Origin: an uncultured Anaerolineales bacterium
Lineage (GTDB): Bacteria; Chloroflexota; Anaerolineae; Anaerolineales; UBA4823
Length of the DNA: 33,661 nucleotides
Direction of reading: 5' to 3'
Assembly (NCBI GenBank): GCA_937928795.1
Contig: CALFWB010000060.1
Span: 1-33,661, forward strand
Under the pieces are notes generated by a model. It was not told the DNA's origin. It worked only from the letters and a program-made list of their open reading frames with translations, and did no database searches. Shown here one piece after another: positions 11,961 through 26,766 of this stretch (positions are counted from its first letter, which is position 1; every line of letters starts with the position of its first letter). Both the position numbers and the translations under genes were made by a program.

Positions 11961-14900
11961 ATGGGGCATTCCGTTACCCTGGTCGGTTGGATCGGTTTTC
12001 TTCTCGGCGTCGTTTTGACGCTCGGCGCAATTTGGTTGGTGACAAGAGCTTTTAGTCGCAAAAACCAATCCCTCCCATCTGCGTTACCCCTCACCCTCGA
12101 TTTGGTGACCCATTCTGAAGCAATTTTACTGATCTCGCGTGGCGGTAAGATCGAATATCTCAATCAAGCAGCTCGAGAGCTCTTTCGTTTAGGAGAGAGC
12201 CGGCCGAATTTGGAAGGTTTAGCCCGCCGTGTGACCCCTTCTGATTCTTTCCTTAGCCTTTGCGCTGCAGAAGGACGGACGCGTTTCACCATTGACGGTC
12301 GGTTGATCGATGGCATTTCTTTTCGCATTCCCTACCCCTCGGGTTGGGCGACCTTGGTTTCTCTCCATCGTTCCCAACTCATTTCCGCTGAGGGACAAAG
12401 CCTATCAACCTCACGGGGGGCTCCTCAGGGACTAGGCGCGTTTGTTGAGGTCATCCAAACGATGACCGCGGTTCAGGATGTAGCCACTACGTTGCTGACC
12501 ATTTTACAAAGCATTGGGCGAATTATTCCCTTCGATACCTCGCTCATTGCTCTTTGGGATCAAGATCAGCAAGTGCTGCTCCCTTATTACTGGAAAACCC
12601 AAGGTAACCGCTTTGCCCTAGAACAAGGGTCGCCGATTTCGGCAGTCGATCGCCTGCGCAATTCTTCGCTTTTGTTCAAACGGGAAGCAACCCTGTGGAG
12701 CGGCCCTCAGTTCGATGAACTACAGGTGTTCTTCCCAACGGCTCAGGACGTGGAGGCTTTTCATTCCTTTTTGAGTGTGCCATTATGGGCAGGCAATGAT
12801 TACCGCGGGGTATTGATCTTGGCTTCCCTAATGGTTGAGGCGTACTCCGAAGAAGACCTCGAAACCGCTAAGTGGATTGCCGATGTTGCCGGCAACGCCT
12901 TGCGCAATGCCCAACTTTACGAGAATCAACAGAAACGGTTGATCGAGTTAACCAGCTTGGTGCAGCTTTCGCAAGCGGTGAATGCGCTGAGCGAACCTCA
13001 GGAACTATTTAGCCATTTGGTGGAAAGTTTTGCCCCGTTGTTAGATGTGCGGGTGTTGGGTTTTTTGCTATACGATGAGAACCGTCACATTCTTGAAGCT
13101 CAATCTCCCTTTCTGGGCGTCCCCCCAAACGCTTTAGAGTTTGCGCGGTACTCCATTCGACCGGGCAGCGAAGCTGAACAATGGATTGGCCGTCGAGAGG
13201 TTTACGTTTCGAGCGATGCACCTAAAGATCGGGAGTTAGCCCTCCTAGAACTCAACCACTTTGCTCAAGCGCTCGGCATCCGTCATCTAGCCCTTCAGCC
13301 GCTGTTGTTAGGCGGACGTTTTTTGGGCTTTTTGCTTGCGGCTGAGAAAAACAGCGCAGAACCTTTTCAGGCAGATGACCTGCGGATTTTATCGCTCATG
13401 GCGGTTCAAACCGCTTCGCTGGTGGACAATGTCAACTTAATGCAGCAAGCGCGCCGGCGTGCCCTTGTTGCAGAAGCTTTGCGCCGCATTACCAATTTGA
13501 CCAGTTCTGCGGCAAACCTGGACGAAATTATCCAGTACTCCGTACTCGATATCGCCCGTTTGTTGGGTTGTGATGTCTCGGCTTTGTTCTTGTTCGATGA
13601 AGCAAAAGGAGAATTGGTGCTCCATCAAGCTTCAACTTACGGCATTGATCCCCAGATCGCAGCCCTCATGAAGCGCATTTCGGTTGAAAACCCGCGCTTT
13701 CAAAGCACGGTCACGGCTCGCCGAACCCCGCTGTTGAGCGGCAATAGCCTAGAAGATCCTATCGTTCTAGCGGTTTACAACGAATGGGTAGGACCGTTGC
13801 AGTTGGACTCGATTCTGGCTGTACCATTAGTGGTGCGCGAGCAAAGCTTGGGGGAATGGATGTTCGGCAGCCATAAACCCGACTTCTTCACGCAAGTGGA
13901 TTTACAAACGGTTTCCACTGCGGCCGGGCAGTTGGCCGGCGCCATTGAGCGGGCAGAGCTTTATTCTCAAACCGATGAAAGTTTGCGCCGGCGGGTGAAT
14001 CAGTTGGTGGCTTTGACTCGCATCAGTCGCGAATTAAATAGCACACAAGACCTCGATTATCTGATTGAGCGCGTTTACGATGAAGCCTTGAGCACAACTG
14101 CTGCCGATTGTGGCACCATTCTACTCTTTGCCTTTGGTGAACCGATTCATCCTTTTTCTTCCGATCCACGCGTAATTTTCTATCTGGGAGAAGCTCCATC
14201 GCCGCAGTTGCGTCCTGAAGAACGGTGGGTGCTTCAAAATGGCGAAAGTTTTTTGGTCGGAGACTATCAAAATCTCCAAGCAGATGTCCTGCCTTTGAGT
14301 GGCTTATCTGCGGAAGGAAACGTGCCGCTGGAGCCGCCACATGCCGATATCCGCTCGGCGATGATTGTGCCGATCGCCTATCAGGATCAAGTGGTGGGGT
14401 TGATTCATCTCCATTCTACTCAGCCCCATGCTTTTGACCAAACCGCCCGAGAAATTGCCGAGTCTTTGGCCATTCAAGCCGCCATTGCGATTGGGAATGC
14501 TCAGCGCTATCAAGATGAAGTGCGCCGCCGCGAGATGCTCACCCAGCGGGTAGATACGTTGGCGAAGCTCTTTGAAGTCGCCCAATCTGTCCAATTAGAT
14601 TTGCCACTTGAAAAGGGTCTTGAGAACATCGCCTATGCTTTGCGCTCCATCACGCCATTTCAAGCGATCAAAATCTACGTTACAAATTCGGATGGCATCC
14701 TTCTAAGTCCCATTGCTTCTATTGGTTTGGATGAGAGCGAACGAGAGGTTTTTGAGAAAAGCCCGGTTGCTTGGGTGGAGCTGCAAGGGTTACTGGAGGA
14801 TGCTTTTCGGCTTGGAAAAGCCTACTTTATTCCTGTTGAGTGTCAAGCCGAAGCGGAAGGGGCTTATTTCCCCAAACTAGTCCCTTGCGACGAACAAGGG

Positions 14901-17900
14901 AGCAACCCAACCCAATATTTTTCTTGGCAGGCAGGCGATTTGTTTGTGCTTCCTCTATACAGCTCAAGAGGGCAGGTCCTGGGGGCAATCCAGATGGACA
15001 AACCGCGCGACAATCTGCGCCCTGACCACTCGATTTTGAATTCCTTGGAGGTCATTGCGGTTCAGGCAGCCCTGATCATCGAAAGTCATAGCCGTGTTGA
15101 CCAACTTCAAAAGAAGATCGCTGAACTCAATGACGAGTTAGAGCAAGCTCGTCAGATGGGATTGGCTTTACGCACACACCTGATGGAACAGGTGGAAAAC
15201 GAACTGAGGCAAGATAGCCAGGTCGAACGGTATCGTATCTTGGGCAAGCGCATTCATGCTCTGCTTAAGGTCAGCAGTGAAATGCTTGAATATACCGATC
15301 GACGAGAATTGCTGCGGATGGTTGGGAGAGCTTTCATTGAGAAGTTAGAGTACCAAAGTGTCCTCCTCGCTGAACCCGGTTCGGGCGGAGTAAAGCTGAT
15401 CGATGTCTTGGGGGATGTCGAGGATGGCGTTGCTATCGAACCTTTGCTTGGCCAGCGCAACCCGCTCTTGGCTTGTTTGCGCAATCGTCAGGCTGAGATA
15501 GTGGCTTCTCTGGTCGAAGAAGGGCGCTGGCAAGATTCGCCTTTGCTCGATGCGCTCGAAGCGAAGGGATTTGTCTGTTTGCCGATTTTGCCGCAGAATG
15601 CCCCTGAGGCGGCGCTCTTAGCTGTCTCGCGAAAACCGCTCTTGCCCTTTTTGAGCGAAGACCTCCAGATGTTTAACCTGTTCTTGCGACAAGTTGGGTT
15701 GGTGCTCCAGCATATCAACCTCATGGAGGAGATTGAGCGCCGTTTTCAGGAGGTCAATTTCTTGTTGGATTTCAGCCGTCGCTTGAGCAGTCTGGAACCA
15801 ACCCATATCGTTGAAACCCTCTTGCAATCGCTGCTTCATCAGTTGCCCATGGCAGAAGCCGGGCTGATTGCTCTGTGGGATGCTCAGCAAGAAATGCTGA
15901 TTCCACAAGCAGTGCTGGGTTATTCCGATAACGATGCCATTCGGAGCATTCGGTATGCCGCTGGCACTTCCTTGATCGGGAAAGCGTTCCTTCGCGGAGA
16001 GCCGCTCGTTATCCCAGACTTGGATTTTGCCCAACATTATCAGCTCTCGGTCAACGATTTGGCAGCTTATCGCAAGGGCACCAACGGCCGCCTCCCCATT
16101 TCCTGTCTGGTGATGCCCTTGAAGGGCTCAGCGCAAATGGCTTCCATTGGCGTTTTGGTGTTGGATAATTTCCGCTTCCCCTCCGCCTTTGGAAGTGAAA
16201 ATGTGGCCTTGGCGGCTTCGTTGTGTCAACAAGCTGCCCTGTATTTGGAGAACTCGCGTTTGTTCCAAGCTTCCCAGCAGAGAGCCGCCCAGCTTCAGGC
16301 TCTCACCAATGTCTCTGCCTCTATCACTGCCAAGTTAGAGCCGGGTGACTTGATCGCTGCGCTGTTGGATGAGCTGCATGCCATTGTGCCGTATGACACC
16401 GGCACGTTATGGTTGAGAGAAGGAGAGCAGGTGGTCGTAGCCGATGCCCGCGGCTTTGCCGATCAGGAGCAACGGGTTGGCTTGGCGGTTGCCATCGAGG
16501 ATAGCCAATTGCTGGCAGAGATGATCGAGACGGCGCAGCCTATTTCGGTGTCAAACACGTTGCTCGACCCCCGTTTCCCCAGATTGGGGGAACAATCCCC
16601 CACTTCTTGGCTGGGTTTACCTTTAGCCGTAGGAGGGAAGGTTTTGGGAGTGATCGCGCTGGAGAAGCAGGGGATCGGCTTTTTTAACGAAGAAACGGTC
16701 CAAATTGCAGCCGCTTTTGCGTCTCAAGCCGCAGTCTCTTTGGAAAACGCGCGTCTCTACCAAGAGAGCCTTTCCCGTGCAGTCGAGTTGACCGAACAAA
16801 CCCAGCGGCTAGCGATGTTAAACCGGCTGTCGCAAGACCTCAGCCAAACGCTCGACCCGCTGCAAATTATCCACCGAACTATTGAAGAAGTCCTGCAAGT
16901 TACCTCAGCAAGCGGGGTCATGGCTGTCTTGTTGGATTCATCCGATTTGCCCATTATGGTTGCCGAACAACCGACCTATGAGGATCATTATCCCTTGCCC
17001 GTTGCTCCTGTTCCCTTGTTTGATCGGTTGCGGGAAAGTTTAGGGCTCTTCTTTACTGAGGATGTAAGCCAAGAAGATGAGCTGAGCGCTTTGCAAGAGC
17101 TTTTTACCTTGCGCCATATCCACTCCCTGCTCGCTTTGCCTTTAGCTACTGCCGAAACGTTGCATGGCGTGATTTTGATCTATTCACAAACTGCCGGGCG
17201 GATTGCTCCTGAAAAGGTGGAGTTGGCGCGCACCGTGATTAACCAAGCGGCAGTGGCTTTGCAGAACGCCCGTCTTTACGCCGAGACGCGGCGCCTGACC
17301 GAAGAGCTGGAAAAACGCGTCCAAGAACGTACCTTGCAACTGGCTTCCGAGCATCAGCGCACGCAAATTTTGCTGCGCATCGCCACCGAATTGACCGCCA
17401 GCCTTGATTTGGAACATGTGATTAACCAAGTGTTGCCAGTCTTAAACGAGTTGGTAGGTGCCGAACAAGTTTCTGTCATGGTCGTGCGCTCCGACTCTCC
17501 GTGGCTGTACCATCTGGCTTCTTTAGGCTACGCGGCGGCGCCTCCCTTTGGTGGAAAGCTCTCGCCCTTCAAGGTCAATGAAGGTTTAGCTGGTTGGGTG
17601 ATTAAGCACCGCCAGCCAGCCCTGATTCCAGATGTGCGCGAGGACCCGCGCTGGGTTCAAGTGTCTAACCAGCTAGGCGAACATCGCAGCGCCATTGCCG
17701 TACCGATGATGGTGGGCGAGGAAGCTTTAGGAGCCTTGCTGTTCTTCCATCGCCAGCCGCATCATTTCACCTCCGATCAATTGGATCTGGTCCTGGCGGC
17801 CGCAAATCAGATGGCCATTGCGGTAAACAATGCTGAATTGTACCGCTTGATCCGCGACCAAGCAGAAGACCTTGGGGTGATGCTGCGCAATCAGCAAATT

Positions 17901-19022
17901 GAAACCAGCCGCTCGAAAGCTATCCTCGAAGCAGTCGCCGATGGCGTTTTGGTGACCGATTCAGCCGGGAAAATCACCTTGTTTAATGCCTCGGCAGAAC
18001 GCATCTTGAACCTCTCGCGCAAAGATGTAATGGGGAAAAACCTGGATCAATTCAGTGGGCTTTTCGCCCGCAGTGCAAGCATGTGGACACAGACCATTGA
18101 AGCCTGGTCAAGCCAGCCCAATTCTTATTCAGCTCAAGAGGTCTATTCCGAGCAAATCGAACTGGATAACGGGAAAGTCGTTGCCGTGAGTCTGGCGCCG
18201 GTCTTTCTGCGTAACGATTTTCTTGGCACGGTCTCGGTTTTCCGCGATATTACGCATCAGGTCGAAGTTGACCGCCTGAAATCGGAGTTTGTGGCGACAG
18301 TGAGCCATGAGTTGCGTACCCCGATGACCTCGATTAAGGGATATGTTGAAATTCTGTTGATGGGAGCAGCGGGAGCATTAAGTGAACAACAGACCCGCTT
18401 TTTGGAGATCGTCCGCAGCAATATTGAACGCTTGGCCGCTTTGGTCAACGATTTGCTGGATATTTCGCGCATCGAAGCCGGTAAAGCAGGGCTCAGTTTG
18501 CAACCCTTAAATATGGTAGACCTCACGAAACAGTCTTTGTCTTTCATCCGAGAGCGGGCAGAGCGCGAAAATAAACCCATGCAATTTGAACTTCACGTTG
18601 AAGGAGCGATTCCCTTTGTCCAAGGTGATCCCGAACGGGTGATGCAAATTCTCGATAACTTGCTGGAGAACGCTTATCATTATTCCGATGCGGGGCGAAC
18701 GGTTCAAGTTCAACTACACGCTGAGGATACGGTTGTGCGGGTGGATGTGATTGATCAAGGGGTGGGTATTCCGCCAGCCTTGCAGGAGCGTATCTTTGAG
18801 CGCTTCTATCGCGGTGAGAATCCGCACGTTCTGGCAACCTATGGCACCGGTTTGGGGTTATCCATTGTCAAGAGACTGGTTGAGATGCATGGTGGAAAAA
18901 TCTGGGTACAAAGCAAAGGCATTGAGGGCGAAGGGAGCACTTTTTCCTTCACATTACCGATTGTCACAAGCGCCTTGCAGCCGCTCGAGACCGATGGAGA
19001 AAGCTCATGGCAAAAATCTTAA
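11961..19022 (+). CDS. Giant multi-GAF sensor histidine kinase (2353 residues)
   Basis: Membrane-anchored sensor kinase. One N-terminal transmembrane helix (about residues 4-28) is followed by a PAS-like module (about 48-140). About ten GAF-type modules then end near residues 322, 492, 668, 850, 1045, 1260, 1437, 1602, 1773 and 1962. Most close with the typical helix pattern AAxxLENARLY. Coiled-coil linkers lie after modules 5 (1045-1090) and 9 (1775-1800). A second PAS module (about 1986-2100) follows. The kinase core has the H-box SHELRTPM with His2116, the N-box DNLLENAYHY, and ATP-lid motifs DQGVGIP, FERFYRG and GTGLGLSIVK. No receiver or HPt domain is fused. The stop lies inside the next receiver gene (16-base overlap). 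GAF modules bind small molecules or cofactors; no bilin-type Cys motif was identified, so the ligands are unknown. The length is several times that of a usual kinase. Confidence 0.93.
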   Translation: MGHSVTLVGWIGFLLGVVLTLGAIWLVTRAFSRKNQSLPSALPLTLDLVTHSEAILLISRGGKIEYLNQAARELFRLGESRPNLEGLARRVTPSDSFLSLCAAEGRTRFTIDGRLIDGISFRIPYPSGWATLVSLHRSQLISAEGQSLSTSRGAPQGLGAFVEVIQTMTAVQDVATTLLTILQSIGRIIPFDTSLIALWDQDQQVLLPYYWKTQGNRFALEQGSPISAVDRLRNSSLLFKREATLWSGPQFDELQVFFPTAQDVEAFHSFLSVPLWAGNDYRGVLILASLMVEAYSEEDLETAKWIADVAGNALRNAQLYENQQKRLIELTSLVQLSQAVNALSEPQELFSHLVESFAPLLDVRVLGFLLYDENRHILEAQSPFLGVPPNALEFARYSIRPGSEAEQWIGRREVYVSSDAPKDRELALLELNHFAQALGIRHLALQPLLLGGRFLGFLLAAEKNSAEPFQADDLRILSLMAVQTASLVDNVNLMQQARRRALVAEALRRITNLTSSAANLDEIIQYSVLDIARLLGCDVSALFLFDEAKGELVLHQASTYGIDPQIAALMKRISVENPRFQSTVTARRTPLLSGNSLEDPIVLAVYNEWVGPLQLDSILAVPLVVREQSLGEWMFGSHKPDFFTQVDLQTVSTAAGQLAGAIERAELYSQTDESLRRRVNQLVALTRISRELNSTQDLDYLIERVYDEALSTTAADCGTILLFAFGEPIHPFSSDPRVIFYLGEAPSPQLRPEERWVLQNGESFLVGDYQNLQADVLPLSGLSAEGNVPLEPPHADIRSAMIVPIAYQDQVVGLIHLHSTQPHAFDQTAREIAESLAIQAAIAIGNAQRYQDEVRRREMLTQRVDTLAKLFEVAQSVQLDLPLEKGLENIAYALRSITPFQAIKIYVTNSDGILLSPIASIGLDESEREVFEKSPVAWVELQGLLEDAFRLGKAYFIPVECQAEAEGAYFPKLVPCDEQGSNPTQYFSWQAGDLFVLPLYSSRGQVLGAIQMDKPRDNLRPDHSILNSLEVIAVQAALIIESHSRVDQLQKKIAELNDELEQARQMGLALRTHLMEQVENELRQDSQVERYRILGKRIHALLKVSSEMLEYTDRRELLRMVGRAFIEKLEYQSVLLAEPGSGGVKLIDVLGDVEDGVAIEPLLGQRNPLLACLRNRQAEIVASLVEEGRWQDSPLLDALEAKGFVCLPILPQNAPEAALLAVSRKPLLPFLSEDLQMFNLFLRQVGLVLQHINLMEEIERRFQEVNFLLDFSRRLSSLEPTHIVETLLQSLLHQLPMAEAGLIALWDAQQEMLIPQAVLGYSDNDAIRSIRYAAGTSLIGKAFLRGEPLVIPDLDFAQHYQLSVNDLAAYRKGTNGRLPISCLVMPLKGSAQMASIGVLVLDNFRFPSAFGSENVALAASLCQQAALYLENSRLFQASQQRAAQLQALTNVSASITAKLEPGDLIAALLDELHAIVPYDTGTLWLREGEQVVVADARGFADQEQRVGLAVAIEDSQLLAEMIETAQPISVSNTLLDPRFPRLGEQSPTSWLGLPLAVGGKVLGVIALEKQGIGFFNEETVQIAAAFASQAAVSLENARLYQESLSRAVELTEQTQRLAMLNRLSQDLSQTLDPLQIIHRTIEEVLQVTSASGVMAVLLDSSDLPIMVAEQPTYEDHYPLPVAPVPLFDRLRESLGLFFTEDVSQEDELSALQELFTLRHIHSLLALPLATAETLHGVILIYSQTAGRIAPEKVELARTVINQAAVALQNARLYAETRRLTEELEKRVQERTLQLASEHQRTQILLRIATELTASLDLEHVINQVLPVLNELVGAEQVSVMVVRSDSPWLYHLASLGYAAAPPFGGKLSPFKVNEGLAGWVIKHRQPALIPDVREDPRWVQVSNQLGEHRSAIAVPMMVGEEALGALLFFHRQPHHFTSDQLDLVLAAANQMAIAVNNAELYRLIRDQAEDLGVMLRNQQIETSRSKAILEAVADGVLVTDSAGKITLFNASAERILNLSRKDVMGKNLDQFSGLFARSASMWTQTIEAWSSQPNSYSAQEVYSEQIELDNGKVVAVSLAPVFLRNDFLGTVSVFRDITHQVEVDRLKSEFVATVSHELRTPMTSIKGYVEILLMGAAGALSEQQTRFLEIVRSNIERLAALVNDLLDISRIEAGKAGLSLQPLNMVDLTKQSLSFIRERAERENKPMQFELHVEGAIPFVQGDPERVMQILDNLLENAYHYSDAGRTVQVQLHAEDTVVRVDVIDQGVGIPPALQERIFERFYRGENPHVLATYGTGLGLSIVKRLVEMHGGKIWVQSKGIEGEGSTFSFTLPIVTSALQPLETDGESSWQKS

Positions 19023-20168: not shown

Positions 20169-20214
20169 GGGAGGAAGCCCTCAACCCCGGCGCTCTCCCA
20201 GAGGGAGACGGGAA

Positions 20215-20281
20215 GATTGCCCTCACCCTTCGACCAGCTCAGGGCAACGCCCCCGTCCCCTCTCCCACAAGGGGAGAGGGG
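20215..20281. repeat. Dispersed GC-rich repeat, copy A
   Basis: This 67-base unit is almost identical to 20558-20624 (two differences seen). It contains the inverted pair CCCCTCTCCCAC / AGGGGAGAGGGG, and its 3' half recurs again at 26344-26376. It belongs to the gene-free block 20169-20638, which holds only repeats. Open frames in this block are translations of repeat sequence. Confidence 0.7.
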
Positions 20282-20334
20282 GGCTGGTTCGCCCTTCTCC
20301 ATAAGGGAGAAGGGTTGGGGATGAGGGAAAAGGC

Positions 20335-20519
20335 GCGGGTTGAGTAGTGAGCGCAGCGAGCGTATCGAAACCCGCGGTGGTTGGGTGGTCTCGGTACGGG
20401 CTGACGCCCTACTCGACCCGCAGAGGCAACCGGCGGGTTGAGTAGTGAGCGCAGCGAGCGTATCGAAACCCACAGTGGTTGGGTGGTCTCGGTACGGGCT
20501 GGCGCCCTACTCGACCTGC
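20335..20519. repeat. Two tandem 87-bp units, 98-bp period
   Basis: Units at 20335-20421 and 20433-20519 are nearly identical. Each starts GCGGGTTGAGTAG and ends with the near-complement CTACTCGACCCGC, so each unit is itself an inverted repeat that could fold into a long hairpin. The interior has GAGCGCAGCGAGCG and CTCGGTACGGGCTG. This looks like a REP/MITE-type non-coding element in tandem. Confidence 0.75.
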
Positions 20520-20557
20520 GCCCTCACCCCCAGCCCCTCTCCCAGAGGGCGAGGGGA

Positions 20558-20624
20558 GATTGCCCTCACCCTTCGACCAGCTCAGGGCAACGCCCCCGGC
20601 CCCTCTCCCACGAGGGGAGAGGGG
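20558..20624. repeat. Dispersed GC-rich repeat, copy B
   Basis: Second copy of the 67-base unit at 20215-20281. It joins directly onto the 3' end of the small peptide gene at 20639-20785. The same junction is present next to the second peptide gene (26344-26390), so repeat and gene were duplicated together. Confidence 0.7.
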
Positions 20625-20638
20625 AGGAAGCTGCTGGG

Positions 20639-20785
20639 TCAGGGCGTTTCACCGAGCGCGTCGTCAAAATCGGGCAGCGAAAGCGGGGAACCGACTTGGG
20701 TTTCTAGCTCGATTTCAAGCACGATCTGCGGCGCTTGGTAGGGGTTTGGTTTATCCGTTGTCTGGTTCGGTAAATTTAACGTCAT
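20639..20785 (-). CDS. Small acidic peptide 1 (48 residues), possible RiPP-like precursor
   Basis: Unrecognised short gene. The peptide begins MTLNLPNQTTDKPN, has a central PYQAPQIVLEIELETQ, and ends GSPLSLPDFDDALGETP. It is acidic, has no Cys and no signal peptide. Evidence that it is real: a strong AGGAG six bases before the ATG; start codon overlapping the stop of the 1809-residue surface protein as ATGA; and a second gene at 26390-26533 with the same length, coupling and sequence (about 80% identical over the shared C-terminal part). The motif YxxPxI followed by Thr and a short tail with Asp resembles leader/core layouts of some ribosomal peptide precursors such as lasso peptides. No modifying enzyme is visible in the window, so function is open; a chaperone or tag for the surface protein is another possibility. 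Confidence 0.7.
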   Translation of the reverse strand: MTLNLPNQTTDKPNPYQAPQIVLEIELETQVGSPLSLPDFDDALGETP

Positions 20786-23700
20786 GAGGCTCTCCTATTG
20801 CGCCAGAACTTAACGGTCCTAACGCTGCCCAACAGGGCGAATATCAGAATAAGCACCCAGAGAGGCGACGTCGGCGGTGAGCTTGCCCTGAACTGAGCGA
20901 CCCGGACCAAAGTCGGGCTGATGCTCATTGTGTAGTTTGCCGTATTGTTATTGGGCTCCGGATCGAGAATTGGATCGGGGGTTTCCACTGAAACCGAGTA
21001 AGTCAGCCCATTGGACTGGTAGTTCGGCGGCAGGATACCCACCACCGTAAGGGTGAGCTCATCACCGGTCAGGAAGGTGATCCCGCTCCAGGTATCGGTG
21101 TCGGGATTATATTCACCGATGCTAGGCGTATAGGTCGGACTGCTGATGACGTTCGGTAGCACATCGATCAGCTTGAATTGCGTCAGACCACTGATCGCAT
21201 GGTGGGAAACTGTGATCGTATAGGTAATCCAGCGTCCGCTCTGCACGCCGCTCACCTGCACCCCTAGATCGGCATAGCGATTGGTGTCTTGTGCGTCTTG
21301 AGCGGAGTTATCGCTTGGGTTTTGCTCAGTGGCTTGGTCGGTGCTGACCTGAGCACTGTTGAGGAGCTGACCGCTAAAGAGAGGGTCCAATTGTCCGCGA
21401 ATGGTGAGCGTGAGTGAGCCATTTGGCGCCAACGAGATACCCGTCCATTCGCCACTTTGCGGGTCATATTGACCGCTGCTCGGCGTATATTGGGGTGCAA
21501 TCAGAGCGCTTGGAAGCGGGTCAAGCAAGGTGAGCCGAGTCAGCGTGCGTGTGCCTTTGTTAGTCACGGTCAGCGTATAGGTCAACACATCGCCGGCAAC
21601 CACGGGATTAGGCAAACTGGATTTGCGCAAAGCAAGATCAGAGAGAGGAAGGTCGACGGCTGCCCCGCTGAGCGTTTGATAGACAGTGCCGCTTGCACTT
21701 GCGTAGTTTGCCCCTGCAAGGTTGGCAATTAGATTCACTTCGTCAGAAAGCACCCGTATCGGGATGCTCTCTTGCGCCTCACATCCGCCTGCGTCACGAG
21801 CGCGCACGACAGCCGTGTATTCCCCAGGCAGGTTGTAAGCATGTTGCGCACTGGAGTTGGTTGAAAAGCCTTGGGATTGACCGTCGCCGAACTCAAAACG
21901 GTATTCAAGCGGTGCAACACCGCCCAGCAATGCTGCATTGGCAGTAAACGTCACGGTTTGACCGGCTTTCAAAATTCTGGGCACCTTGACGAAGGAGCGC
22001 GTTTCACTCCACGCTAGGGTCAAATCGAAGAGCAATCCAGAGTGATCCTGACCGCCAAAAGGAAGGTGACCACCATGGCGGTTGTTCAACAGGCGCACAG
22101 CCAATAAGTTCAGTCCCCCTTGAGCGGCTTGGTTGTCAAAGAAGTTGCTCACTCCACCACCACCGATTTGCTGACCTAGATAGACCCCATTGAGATAGAT
22201 ATCCGAAACGTCGTCTCCGGCTAGGGTGAGGGTCGTTGTAATCCCCGTGGCGTTGAGCGGCACGCAAGCCTTAGCGCGAAAGAAGGTGTAGTTGGGATCC
22301 AGTTGACCCTCCGTATTCATGGTCACCCAATCGGCGCCTAGCGTTCGTTCGTCATACCAATACATTTCCCGAGTGGCAGAAGCGGGTGATGTCCAACCTG
22401 AGTCACTAAAGGTTGTTTGACGGGGGTTGAGATTCCAGCCGGCTGGTCCGAGGGGATTCGGTCCTTGCCAGATGCCCTTCAGGTAACTTGCCCCGACCTT
22501 GGATTTGATATTTACCTGCCCGCCACTGCCTGAGCTACCAAACGATGGCTCAACCGTCGCTGCGCCGCCAGCCGACAGGCTGGGAATGAGGACAAAGGAG
22601 ACTTCGCCCCCGCTTTGGGGCAATAGGTTGCCCACATTCCAGACCACTTGACCGCCTGAGGTTGAACAAATATCTGAAGGCTTACAAGAGCCTAGGACAT
22701 AAGAGGTGTTGGCAGGCAGGGTGTCTGTGATAACTACATTCGTTGCCGGCGTATCGGAGGCGTTTTCATATCTTAGGGTGACCGTGAGCGGCTCATTCGG
22801 TCGGGCGGGTTCGCTCATCGTTTTGGTCAGAAGCACTACCGGGCGGACGACGCGATCACTGTCACTCGAAGTGTTATTCGAGAGGTCAATATCTGCGCCT
22901 TGACTACCATCGTCGGTGATCGCAGCAGGAATGGTGAGAATGGTTTCCGGCAAGGCTTGCGCCGCAACCTGACAGCGAAAAGCTAACGAGCTTGAAGTGC
23001 CGGCTGCCAAGGGGCTAAGACTCCAAGTGAGGGAGCGGCTATTTCCGTCATATTGATAGCTCCCTTGCGCCCACTCGAAGACCAACTCTGGCGGTAACTG
23101 AACGGTTACAGTGATATTTCCAGAGGTTCGGTTGCCTAGGTTTTGGTAGTCAAGCGTATAGGTGATCGTCTCTCCCGCAAGAACGGTTGCTTTGGAGTCG
23201 TCAATCTGGATGGCTAAATTAGGCGCAAAGACCAGCGGATCTTTATCGCTCACCTCGTTATCGGTGATGTCGCTTTCAGGCGAGGCTGTGCGGACAAAGA
23301 CATAGTTATAGGTTTGGGTAATGGATTGGGTGGTCGTCAACCAGGCGGTTAAGTTGAGAGTGGCGCTCTCGCCGGGCAGAAGCGGATTTGGAAGTGTCCA
23401 TACAACTTGCTGCCCATTGTGGACACAGCTTGATGAACAGTCAAGGAACTTCAAGCTGCTTGCCATCGTGTCGGTAATGACGACAGCGGTGGCGGTCAGG
23501 CTGCCGCTGTTCTGCACCGTAATAGTGTAAACGAGGGTATCTTCCAATTGGACGGCGGTCTTGCCGTTGCTCTTGAGCACCAGCAGGTCAGCGTTTTTCA
23601 GTTGCAGGTCTTGGACGTTGATGGCGCCAGATTGGATCGTTTTAGCCACCGACTCGGAGGTTTGGTATTGTGCATGGCTGGCTTGGATGGTTGCCGCGCC

Positions 23701-26211
23701 AGGAGCTAATCCGATGACTTGATAAAAGCCGTCGCTGTCGGTGTTGACCGTATAAAGGTTGTTTTGTGAGTCGATCACCGTTACCGTAGCGGTGTAAATT
23801 GGGGCACCGCTGGCGGCGTCAGTAACAAAGCCTTGCAAGATGGTTGGTTTGACCGTCAAGCTGACGCTGGCACTGTCGTTGGCTGGGTTGTAGTCATAAG
23901 GGCTGGAAGCCGTGCGCGTGGCGGTGTTCTGAATCGTCTGCCCAGCGGTGAGGGGATTAACTTTAGCGGTCAAAGTCAAGGTGGCAAAAGCTTGGTTGGG
24001 CAGCGTGCCAAGTGTCCATTCGCCACTGGAGGGGTTGTAGCTTCCGTTGTTGGTTGAGGCGTTCTGGTAGGTTAACGTGCTGGGGAGAAGATCGCGGATG
24101 ACGACCGAATCGGTTTCATAAGGTCCTTTATTGGTGACCGTAATGGTGAAGGTCACCCAATCGCCTTCGGTGGGATTGGGGTTATCGACTGCTTTGGTCA
24201 CCTGCAAATCGGCGCTGCGCACATTGGCGATGGCGGTTGAAGAATTGTTGCCGGCGTTGCTGTCGTAAGCACTCTTCAAGTTGGCGGTATTGCTAACTTG
24301 CGGTGCAGCGCTCTCGGTGACCGTCATATTCACGGTGATGGGGGGCAAGCTAGCGCCGGGATTCAGTCCGCTGTTATTGAGATGGGTGCATTCGATGGTT
24401 TGGGCGTTGGTGCTACAGCTCCATCCTGTTCCAGAAGCCAGAGGATTAATTAGACTGGCAGGCAGGGTATCGGTGACCGTCACACTGCCCGGCACGATGG
24501 AAGAGCCAACGTTGCTGACCGTTAATTGAAATAAGCCGCCGTTCGCGCCGATGTCAAAAACGCCTGTAGCCGTCTTGGTAATGCGCAAGTCTTGAGACGT
24601 TTGAGGGACAACGTCTAAGGTGCTTGTGATCGGATCAATGGGGTAGTAAGTCCATAGATCAAGCCCTTTGCGGTCGCCAAAACCGTTACTGCCGTCATTG
24701 CCAAAGGCGCGCTGCGTGGTGGCGGTATCAAAACCGTTCAACGGATCGCTATAGGGGATAGAAGGGGCACCAGCTCCGGGTAAAACAACGCCTGGGGTGC
24801 CAACGGTTGCGCCGCTTGAAACGCGGTAGCCACGGTCGTCGTAAAAGGCATGGCGGCAAGTGGCATAAGGGCAAGTTCCATTGATCGGGTTGAGCAGGGT
24901 GATGGTCGGGCCGCCCAACATGCTGTTCTCTACATCTAGCATGGGGAAGTGATATTCGCCGGCGTGAAAGGTCATCTTATAGGTGAAGTTGACTCCGACC
25001 GGGAACGGATTGCCTTGATTATCCTTGCCGTCCCATTCAACCGTATTGACCCCGGCGACCGATTGAGCGTAAATCACACGGTTTTCTGGCTTGGTTGGGT
25101 CAAAATTGGTTCCATCACGGCTGATCACAATTTGGTTAATGCCTCCGATGGTGCCTTGATAGGTAAAAATGCCGCCGCTGGTGTAATAGGCATCATTACC
25201 TCCCGCCGAGCCTTGAAAAGCCACATTGGTAATTGCCGGTGGGGCTGGGCTGGGCAGAATCTCGGCTGGCAAATCGGCGGCTGGATATTGAAAGAAGATT
25301 TTTGCCTCGGCTGGAGCAAGTTTTACTCCGCCTAGCAGGGTGGTCAATTGATTGTCTGTGCCGACCACATCATGGTAAAGGGGGGTTTTGCCGTCTGGGT
25401 CTAAGAAGCCAACGCGGTTGCCGTAGAAGATATAGCCGTTGGGATCGAGACCGCGGAAATCCACCTGATAAATAAAGCCATCGGCGGTAACGGCATACAC
25501 GGTGGAGAAAACGCGCCGTGAGATCCCATTCCCGGCTGTGATCTGGGCGAGATAATCCACAAACACCCTGCCTGGGATGTTCACCCCTTCAGCAGAACGC
25601 ACAGTGATATCCCACATGGAGACGCCGCTGCGCTGGCTGGCGCTCACGTTTGGGACGTCAATCGTGCCGGCATCCCCGTCGCTGCTTCCGTTTGGTCCGT
25701 CAGGCCCGTAGATGGCTACCCAATACACCCCGGTTTGAGGCACGAGGTAAACACAGGGTGTGTATCCTCCAACGGCTGGCAGGGGTCCAGCCAGTTCTTT
25801 TGTCCGCGTGTTCAACTCTCCTGCGCCGGGGTTAGACTGTCGATATGTGCTGCATTTGAACTCTGGGCTGATGCTGTTCAGAGTGGTTGGCGCAATTTGG
25901 GAAGAGGAGATTTGGTTGGGACGATACAGGACGATATCGCCCGAGCCCACGCCAATCGCGCTTGAACCCATCAAGATCGACTCACCTGCACGAGCATACA
26001 CGCGGAAAAAGGTGCGCCGATAAAGTCCAGCCGTCTTATTAGTGCGCCATTCGGTCAAGGCACGCTTGCCACCGTTGGCATTGAGCTCGCGGCTGCCATC
26101 TGCCTGAGCAGGTTGCACGGAGAAGAGCCCTAACAACAGGATAAGCGAAATAAGGGCGCTCAAAAAGGCAAAACCGGGGATTAACAAGGGAAATGAGGGT
26201 TTGTTTTTCAT
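20782..26211 (-). CDS. Giant secreted surface protein with DUF11, PKD and jelly-roll-like domains
   Basis: Exported protein of 1809 residues. A signal peptide (1-37, cleavage after AQA) precedes a unique region (38-380), then a FlgD-Ig-like segment NTVEWDGKDNQGNPFPVGV near 390. DUF11 adhesion-type repeats start near 540, 668, 864, 993, 1123, 1520 and 1647 (for example LQVTKAVDNPNPTEGDWVTF). A carboxypeptidase-regulatory-like domain sits at about 787-857, a carbohydrate-binding-like jelly-roll at about 1243-1400 with NGVYLGQQ, and a PKD domain at about 1407-1490 (FEFGDG, HAYNLPGEYTAVVRARD). The C-terminus has a transmembrane helix (about 1775-1795) and a basic tail RNRRAS, suggesting membrane anchoring or a sorting signal. 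AAGGA lies eight bases before the ATG. Likely a cell-surface or sheath protein mediating adhesion. Its stop overlaps the start of small peptide 1. Confidence 0.9.
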   Translation of the reverse strand: MKNKPSFPLLIPGFAFLSALISLILLLGLFSVQPAQADGSRELNANGGKRALTEWRTNKTAGLYRRTFFRVYARAGESILMGSSAIGVGSGDIVLYRPNQISSSQIAPTTLNSISPEFKCSTYRQSNPGAGELNTRTKELAGPLPAVGGYTPCVYLVPQTGVYWVAIYGPDGPNGSSDGDAGTIDVPNVSASQRSGVSMWDITVRSAEGVNIPGRVFVDYLAQITAGNGISRRVFSTVYAVTADGFIYQVDFRGLDPNGYIFYGNRVGFLDPDGKTPLYHDVVGTDNQLTTLLGGVKLAPAEAKIFFQYPAADLPAEILPSPAPPAITNVAFQGSAGGNDAYYTSGGIFTYQGTIGGINQIVISRDGTNFDPTKPENRVIYAQSVAGVNTVEWDGKDNQGNPFPVGVNFTYKMTFHAGEYHFPMLDVENSMLGGPTITLLNPINGTCPYATCRHAFYDDRGYRVSSGATVGTPGVVLPGAGAPSIPYSDPLNGFDTATTQRAFGNDGSNGFGDRKGLDLWTYYPIDPITSTLDVVPQTSQDLRITKTATGVFDIGANGGLFQLTVSNVGSSIVPGSVTVTDTLPASLINPLASGTGWSCSTNAQTIECTHLNNSGLNPGASLPPITVNMTVTESAAPQVSNTANLKSAYDSNAGNNSSTAIANVRSADLQVTKAVDNPNPTEGDWVTFTITVTNKGPYETDSVVIRDLLPSTLTYQNASTNNGSYNPSSGEWTLGTLPNQAFATLTLTAKVNPLTAGQTIQNTATRTASSPYDYNPANDSASVSLTVKPTILQGFVTDAASGAPIYTATVTVIDSQNNLYTVNTDSDGFYQVIGLAPGAATIQASHAQYQTSESVAKTIQSGAINVQDLQLKNADLLVLKSNGKTAVQLEDTLVYTITVQNSGSLTATAVVITDTMASSLKFLDCSSSCVHNGQQVVWTLPNPLLPGESATLNLTAWLTTTQSITQTYNYVFVRTASPESDITDNEVSDKDPLVFAPNLAIQIDDSKATVLAGETITYTLDYQNLGNRTSGNITVTVQLPPELVFEWAQGSYQYDGNSRSLTWSLSPLAAGTSSSLAFRCQVAAQALPETILTIPAAITDDGSQGADIDLSNNTSSDSDRVVRPVVLLTKTMSEPARPNEPLTVTLRYENASDTPATNVVITDTLPANTSYVLGSCKPSDICSTSGGQVVWNVGNLLPQSGGEVSFVLIPSLSAGGAATVEPSFGSSGSGGQVNIKSKVGASYLKGIWQGPNPLGPAGWNLNPRQTTFSDSGWTSPASATREMYWYDERTLGADWVTMNTEGQLDPNYTFFRAKACVPLNATGITTTLTLAGDDVSDIYLNGVYLGQQIGGGGVSNFFDNQAAQGGLNLLAVRLLNNRHGGHLPFGGQDHSGLLFDLTLAWSETRSFVKVPRILKAGQTVTFTANAALLGGVAPLEYRFEFGDGQSQGFSTNSSAQHAYNLPGEYTAVVRARDAGGCEAQESIPIRVLSDEVNLIANLAGANYASASGTVYQTLSGAAVDLPLSDLALRKSSLPNPVVAGDVLTYTLTVTNKGTRTLTRLTLLDPLPSALIAPQYTPSSGQYDPQSGEWTGISLAPNGSLTLTIRGQLDPLFSGQLLNSAQVSTDQATEQNPSDNSAQDAQDTNRYADLGVQVSGVQSGRWITYTITVSHHAISGLTQFKLIDVLPNVISSPTYTPSIGEYNPDTDTWSGITFLTGDELTLTVVGILPPNYQSNGLTYSVSVETPDPILDPEPNNNTANYTMSISPTLVRVAQFRASSPPTSPLWVLILIFALLGSVRTVKFWRNRRAS

Positions 26212-26343
26212 CTTGGTCTTCCTTCAAGAGCAAGGATCGGCTTCTCGTGCAAGAGAGAAGCATGTAGATGTTAACTAGATTTTAAGGAAAATTAACCGAT
26301 TTTGACTCTACAGTTTTGTAAGATTGGAGAAGATTTGCCCTCA

Positions 26344-26376
26344 CCCCCGGCCCCTCTCCCACGAGGGGAGAGGGGA
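26344..26376. repeat. Dispersed GC-rich repeat, partial copy C
   Basis: Third occurrence of the GCCCCTCTCCCACGAGGGG hairpin sequence, matching 20593-20625 base for base. It lies immediately 3' of small peptide 2, as copy B does for peptide 1. The hairpin could end or stabilise the transcript before the surface protein gene, which starts 130 bases further on. Confidence 0.65.
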
Positions 26377-26389
26377 GGAAGCTGCTGGG

Positions 26390-26533
26390 TCAGGGCGTTT
26401 CACCGAGCGCGTCGTCAAAATCGGGCTGCGAAAGCGGGGAACCGGCTTGGGTTTCTAGCTCGATTTCGAGCACGATCTGCGAGGCTTGGTAGGGTTTCGG
26501 TGCGTTTGACTCGGTGAGAAATTCTGAAGTCAT
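26390..26533 (-). CDS. Small acidic peptide 2 (47 residues), paralogue of peptide 1
   Basis: The peptide begins MTSEFLTESNAPK, has PYQASQIVLEIELETQAG in the middle and ends SPLSQPDFDDALGETP. It is acidic and without Cys. GGAG lies six bases before the ATG, and the ATG overlaps the stop of the surface-protein remnant upstream as ATGA, exactly as for peptide 1. The C-terminal 34 residues differ from peptide 1 at four positions (Pro/Ser, Val/Ala, Leu/Gln and few others), while the N-terminal 12 residues have diverged. The duplicated block (26344-26494 versus 20593-20743) has about five mismatches in 151 bases. Function unknown. Confidence 0.68.
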   Translation of the reverse strand: MTSEFLTESNAPKPYQASQIVLEIELETQAGSPLSQPDFDDALGETP

Positions 26534-26766
26534 GAAGTTCTCCAAGGGGGGAGTGGAGTGCGGTTCAGATAGAGGGTGAGGAGCGCCAAGATCGGCAAAA
26601 GCAGCCTGATGAGCAGGGGTTTGACCGTGGTGGCACGCATTTGTTTGATCTCGCCTGCGGTCGGGCCAACGTCATTGCCGACAGCCCAGTCGGAAAGAGT
26701 CGTCACGCCCTGGCACATAACGCTGTTTGCCGTGTACGAGTGCATGGCGCAATCCCACACGGACAA
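26530..26766 (-). pseudogene. C-terminal remnant of a second surface protein
   Basis: An open frame of up to 78 codons without a good start (only a TTG, in-frame stop just before it). It reads as the tail of an exported protein: TANSVMCQGVTTLSDWAVGN, then GPTAGEIKQMRATT, a hydrophobic helix LLIRLLLPILALLTLYL and a short tail PPWRTS. The ending parallels the intact surface protein (FRASS, transmembrane helix, basic tail). Its stop overlaps the start of small peptide 2. The 5' part of the gene is missing. It could instead be a very small membrane protein, but the lack of signal peptide and ribosome-binding site argues for a truncated gene. Confidence 0.55.

Follow-up and report, generated by a model that had tools for sequence, protein, structure and literature searches.

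Short peptides encoded behind surface-protein genes in Chloroflexota are candidate RiPP precursors

Two short genes, each overlapping the end of a surface-protein gene or of its remnant, belong to a conserved peptide family of Chloroflexota. We found them in a window of 33,661 nucleotides, the whole stretch of DNA analyzed, from an uncultured Anaerolineales bacterium. Both are probably precursors of ribosomally synthesised and post-translationally modified peptides (RiPPs), from a Chloroflexota branch of systems resembling those of lasso peptides and linear polyphosphorylated peptides (LPPs), in which the precursor would be guided by PqqD, phosphorylated by a kinase, freed of its leader and paired with surface proteins that bear a common signal. 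This reading would provide the first candidate function and maturation machinery for a so far unannotated family of small proteins from a major environmental phylum. It would also extend beyond Bacillota the linear, kinase-dependent RiPPs that were recently described. It would further tie such peptides to surface proteins with a common C-terminal signal and to a sortase-like peptidase, and the role of the peptide thereby becomes directly testable. The peptides and the signal-bearing proteins point to an undescribed surface system.

Layout of the two peptide genes

The features of the window that bear on the two genes are listed here.

20593..20750, no strand assigned: direct repeat copy 1, covering the peptide from about codon 12 together with its 3' flank, 158 nt, 96% identical to copy 2
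20639..20785, minus strand: candidate precursor peptide 1 (P0001), 48 aa, MTLNLPNQTTDKPNPYQAPQIVLEIELETQVGSPLSLPDFDDALGETP, with a YxxPxI leader motif; the putative leader/core junction within it is E-T-Q-V-G-S-P-L-S
20782..26211, minus strand: DUF11/PKD surface protein, 1809 aa, with an N-terminal signal-like segment and a C-terminal sorting-like signal
20785..20919, minus strand: C-terminal sorting-like signal of the 1809-aa protein, SPTLVRVAQFRA plus a hydrophobic stretch plus WRNRRAS (E 2.8e-13, itself a row of the profile)
20792..20796, minus strand: Shine-Dalgarno sequence AGGAG, 6 nt 5' of the peptide 1 ATG
26344..26501, no strand assigned: direct repeat copy 2, 158 nt, 96% identical to copy 1
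26390..26533, minus strand: candidate precursor peptide 2 (P0002), 47 aa
26530..26766, minus strand: remnant of a second surface-protein gene, 78 codons, with the C-terminal signal alone kept
26533..26667, minus strand: the remnant's C-terminal sorting-like signal, GPTAGEIKQMRATT followed by a hydrophobic stretch and PPWRTS (by eye)
26540..26543, minus strand: Shine-Dalgarno sequence GGAG, 6 nt 5' of the peptide 2 ATG

The layout proposed by an earlier sequence-only reading of this DNA held. Each peptide gene starts inside the stop codon upstream of it: the ATG of P0001 shares four nucleotides, ATGA, with the stop of the 1809-residue gene (20782-20785), and the same overlap joins P0002 to the stop of the ORF at 26530-26766 (26530-26533). 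AGGAG and GGAG were found where ribosome-binding sites had been placed, six bases before each ATG. That ORF had been regarded as what is left of a surface-protein gene. We agree, because its 78-residue product ends in VGPTAGEIKQMRATT plus a hydrophobic stretch, which is the tail type of the intact surface proteins; this signal lies outside the signal profile described below and had no reported match in the profile search of the genome.

The core of P0002 differs from that of P0001 by a single change, Leu to Gln, after GS. The 96% identity over 158 nt runs from near peptide codon 12 to about 45 nt beyond the stop. Since it begins inside the peptide and passes the stop, the recently copied or converted unit is the peptide core with its 3' flank; surface protein and peptide together are not what was recently copied. 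Clustered palindromic repeats (CCCCTCTCCCACGAGGGGAGAGGGG) lie at 20176-20625 and 26337-26376 of the window, and a pair of 87-nt repeats is found downstream of the peptides in the same region. At 11961-19022 the window encodes an unusually long multi-domain sensor histidine kinase (2353 aa), followed by a response-regulator receiver gene.

The peptide family and its surface-protein neighbours

The genome, a fragmented MAG of 3.29 Mb in 128 contigs, holds three more homologues on contigs C96, C8 and C68, giving five in all. A profile built from these five copies matched 36 of the 298 genomes of the window's class, and a 56-member profile matched 61 of the 298. In a sample of the phylum (n=400, threshold 1e-6) the matches were the window's genome, one other genome of the class and one outside it. 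For 20 loci the hosts are named, among them Thermoflexales, Ardenticatenaceae and other Anaerolineae MAGs. None of the 56 members scanned matched an NCBIfam family or, in any meaningful way, a Pfam family, the peptide profile retrieved no solved structure of a relative, and we found nothing in the literature on the peptide family or on a Chloroflexota C25/PqqD cassette.

Alignment of 59 members revealed the core R-K-P-Y-x-x-P-x-[IV]-[IV]-[YH]-E-x-x-L-E-[TV]-[RQ]-A-G-S-P-L-G, or in summary form R-K-P-Y-x-x-P-x-[IV]-[IV]-x-E-x-x-L-E-x-R-A-G-S-P-L-G, with a variable C-terminal end rich in Pro, Asp and Leu. Within the YxxPx[IVM] leader motif, Y is kept in 58/59 aligned members, P in 58/59 and [IVM] in 59/59, and a hydroxyl residue follows AG in 58/59. 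P0001 deviates at one conserved position, having V for A in AGS. P0002 is the sole one of the 59 members that lacks the YxxP proline (YQAS, S for P). A good or strong Shine-Dalgarno site precedes most family starts. A sibling class of precursors, KKPYEKPxxIHRQxLEAVAGVC...C and similar, in which AGVC replaces AGS, was seen in HprK-PqqD-rSAM-C25 cassettes (L106, L119, L122, L123); this class, too, is apparently undescribed.

In nearly all close homologue pairs dN was well below dS (dN/dS <1) and, judged by these codon changes, the family is under purifying selection. Together with the three homologues in the genome and the spread over 61/298 class genomes, this confirms that the two short genes are more than chance. 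The sequence-only reading had named as refutations a lack of homologues elsewhere, homologues that never follow surface-protein genes, and equal rates of both kinds of codon change; none of these was found, because homologues exist elsewhere, are under purifying selection and in some cases lie behind surface proteins. Its claim that the peptide survives the loss of its large partner fared worse. P0002 is weak proof of it, because the YxxP proline is lost, the surface-protein partner is truncated and dN/dS against P0001 is high at about 0.64; this orphan copy may be decaying or losing function.

The bodies of the surface proteins that adjoin the peptides are of several kinds with no relation to one another, among them DUF11/PKD, SdrD-like, PARCEL repeats and choice-of-anchor Q. 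What these proteins share is a C-terminal signal: the motif [GSD]-P-T-A-V-x-L-x-x-[LF]-x-A, then a membrane segment, then a tail rich in Arg. The window's genome has just four strong carriers of this signal, each with one of the five peptides behind it; the fifth peptide follows the remnant, and one weak carrier at a contig edge has no peptide behind it. As the four strong carriers are themselves rows of the signal profile, what counts is that no further strong carrier was found in the genome. Across the class sample the signal lay 0-400 bp upstream of 18 peptides in 12 genomes, a co-occurrence inflated by the signal profile (A7) having been built partly from peptide neighbours. The surface-protein/peptide pair is thus a recurring unit, as had been supposed of the coupled module, but the ATGA overlap is not general: the copies on C96, C8 and C68 each start 27-29 nt after the stop of a different surface-protein gene. 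At locus L062 (G097:C160, minus strand) precursor sequence lies in the reading frame of a surface protein, after its membrane anchor and Arg tail, which represents either a natural fusion or an internal start. Many large secreted proteins of the genomes examined, such as C25 proteins in L048, L049, L061, L063, L099 and other loci, carry a YLPLV(L/R)-like motif at the C-terminus.

Maturation machinery and how the peptides may be processed

A strict rule placing every homologue behind a surface protein is not supported. Many are found there, but for about 25 of the 62 precursors that were mapped, PqqD, HprK-like kinase or C25 genes are within 10 kb instead; precursors occur in two settings, in a cassette with PqqD, kinase or C25, or behind surface-protein genes. 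The order kinase(HprK)-PqqD-peptide is found in tandem at L046, L052, L057, L058 and L059, and the order peptide-C25-PqqD-FnIII/TM-C25 at L047-L049, L055 and L061. PqqD is encoded in 33/33 peptide genomes (a count within peptide genomes alone), often 0.1-6 kb from the peptide. The kinase was detected in 26/37 genomes with strong peptide matches versus 30/261 others (Fisher 9e-14, the tests counting related class genomes as independent), and C25 in 59/61 peptide genomes versus 128/237 others. A strong kinase match was absent from 11/37 strong peptide genomes, mainly of family f38. Because a sequence search with the kinase profile matched mostly P-loops, we used a fold search, in which the AlphaFold model of the kinase (pLDDT 93) matched PEP carboxykinases (PEPCK) and an HPr kinase.

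Further genes accompany some of the cassettes. An archaeal-type signal peptidase (TIGR02228) was recognised at L051, L099, L106 and L123, in every case below the TIGR02228 cut-off; an ABC exporter precedes the peptide at L047, and a low-molecular-weight phosphatase is present in some cassettes. At L083 an rSAM/SPASM maturase follows 18 nt after the peptide, with an equal-length homologue at L076.

The window's own genome encodes the HprK-like kinase at C88:3037-3795 (E 1e-61), on a contig that also carries an FnIII/TM protein and a C25 protein of which the N-terminal part is present. PqqD lies at the edge of C3 (C3:1-234), and an FnIII/TM protein and a C25 peptidase are encoded at the start of the same contig. 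Because the gene order matches that of the unbroken cassette in genome G097 (L105), the C88 and C3 fragments probably form one operon, with the assembly breaking between them. No precursor gene was seen on either fragment; all five were found dispersed. A cassette-linked archaeal-type signal peptidase was not found in this genome: of two candidates, identified by eye, one is an ordinary SPase I and the other adjoins a Ni-SOD-like gene. A PF14907 nucleotidyltransferase gene, of a type that paeninodin and LPP clusters contain, is located on C34, outside the cassette (L160/L150, G000:C34, 5181-6344 / 128-1291). It adjoins an NDP-sugar gene and part of a fifth surface protein that bears the signal. 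On C86, a radical SAM/SPASM protein whose N-terminus gives a weak PqqD-like match (L045, G000:C86, 2894-5928) adjoins a protein of 558 aa that ends with a tail of Cys-Ala repeats (GGGCACACACACAGCACACAGGGR); this looks like a separate modified-peptide system.

We propose that the PqqD-type recognition element, encoded on another contig than the window, would bind the YxxPx[IVL] leader and present the peptide to the HprK/PEPCK-fold kinase, which would most likely phosphorylate the near-invariant Ser of the R/Q-A-G-S junction. We infer RRE-guided Ser phosphorylation because the YxxPx[IVL] motif is as in LPPs and LE[TV][RQ]AGS stands at the equivalent place, with its hydroxyl residue in 58/59 members. 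A protease would remove the leader at about L-E-[TV]-[RQ], presumably the archaeal-type signal peptidase in some cassettes and possibly a C25 peptidase in the window's genome, and export would follow. The dispersed precursors of the window's genome would be made together with the proteins that share the PTAVxLxxLxA-membrane segment-Arg tail signal, and the mature peptide would probably act with them at the surface, a partnership that the gene pairing by itself suggests. The earlier proposal that the peptide helps to secrete, anchor or modify the surface protein is less attractive, as the peptide lacks a signal sequence and resembles a RiPP precursor.

The modification is perhaps not phosphorylation everywhere, because some members adjoin rSAM maturases. 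It is unlikely, though credible, that the peptides are RiPP precursors modified in another way, with the HprK-like protein acting on another target or in regulation and a distant radical SAM enzyme modifying the acidic or aromatic core. The maturase at L083, which is of the QhpD/PapB type, would fit this, as would the sibling AGVC precursors in their rSAM-containing cassettes and the radical SAM/SPASM protein on C86. However, most AGS-type cassettes examined consist of kinase and PqqD with no rSAM nearby, the AGS peptides of the window's genome are devoid of Cys, and the hydroxyl residue after AG is nearly always kept. We consider it improbable that the small protein stays unmodified and serves the C-terminal signal of the surface protein as a partner or chaperone, with a YxxP motif of other origin. 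Such a role would suit the tight pairing with the signal and the in-frame arrangement at L062, but it would leave the linkage and co-occurrence with PqqD and kinase unexplained, and many precursors lie in cassettes, away from any signal-bearing protein.

A classical lasso peptide precursor is very doubtful. The leader spacing YxxPx[IVL] is as in lasso leaders (PMC13381572) and the PqqD proteins resemble lasso B1 models (E 1e-11 to 1e-5), but the absence of the B2 leader protease PF13471 from the window's genome and from 28/33 peptide genomes disfavours this reading (5/33 gave matches, 3 over the cut-off), and the alignment holds no consistent Asp/Glu at ring position 7-9. The proteins scanned with Pfam/NCBIfam included none recognised as a macrolactam synthetase (Asn synthase-like). 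Finally, although the 158-nt repeat passes the stop and adjoins palindromic repeats, the idea of a mobile or repetitive DNA element with an incidental ORF can hardly be upheld, since divergent homologues keep the protein and not the DNA, strong ribosome sites precede most starts, and dS far above dN refutes a reading as DNA element only.

Comparison with known systems

If the peptides are kinase-dependent RiPP precursors, LPPs are a close point of reference. LPP systems comprise a discrete RRE, an HprK-like kinase, an archaeal-type SPase, an NTP transferase and an MsbA-like exporter; the leader reads YxxPxVLxHQxIxFETxxS, cleavage occurs at FET, and the HprK-like kinase phosphorylates Ser3 of A-Q-S (PMC13381572). 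In both lasso peptides and LPPs, discrete PqqD-type RREs bind the YxxPx[IVL] leader motif; the LPPs are called restricted to Bacillota, with their role unknown (PMC13381572). The window's genome and its relatives share with LPPs the YxxPx[VIL] leader, a discrete PqqD-type RRE and an HprK-like kinase, as well as a variable C-terminus. A Ser would lie a few residues into the putative core, and some cassettes include a candidate archaeal-type signal peptidase or an ABC exporter. The junction differs, being LE[TV]RAGS in place of FETxxS: E and often T are kept, L stands for F, and one more residue precedes the Ser. In contrast to LPPs, C25 peptidases and FnIII-TM proteins form part of the cassette, and many precursors lie scattered behind genes for surface proteins.

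Lasso peptides of the paeninodin type likewise have the RRE leader motif and an HprK-like kinase, whereas here the B2 protease is missing from nearly all peptide genomes and there is no fitting ring acceptor. In the SynChlorMet cassette (TIGR04248/TIGR04249, ScmD/ScmC), ScmD is the best NCBIfam match of the L046 PqqD and ScmC that of the kinases. All these matches are, however, below the curated cut-offs (49.8 of 100 and 30-40 of 125 bits), and the AGS-type precursors come without the ScmE/ScmF pair.

The C25 catalytic domain resembles models of PorU, the type IX secretion sortase, for which a sortase-like reaction linking surface proteins to peptides or A-LPS has been proposed in Porphyromonas (PMC4560394). 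With this proposed precedent one may speculate that a PorU-like C25 transpeptidase would join the kinase-modified peptide to the C-terminus of the surface protein after the PTAVxLxxLxA signal. We regard such surface tagging as tentative and rather unlikely; if true, each surface protein would receive its own peptide tag or anchor. The C25 proteins score 183.8 and 266.1 bits against a sortase cut-off of 420, and the C-terminal signal here, unlike that of type IX secretion, is a short motif with a membrane segment and not a CTD.
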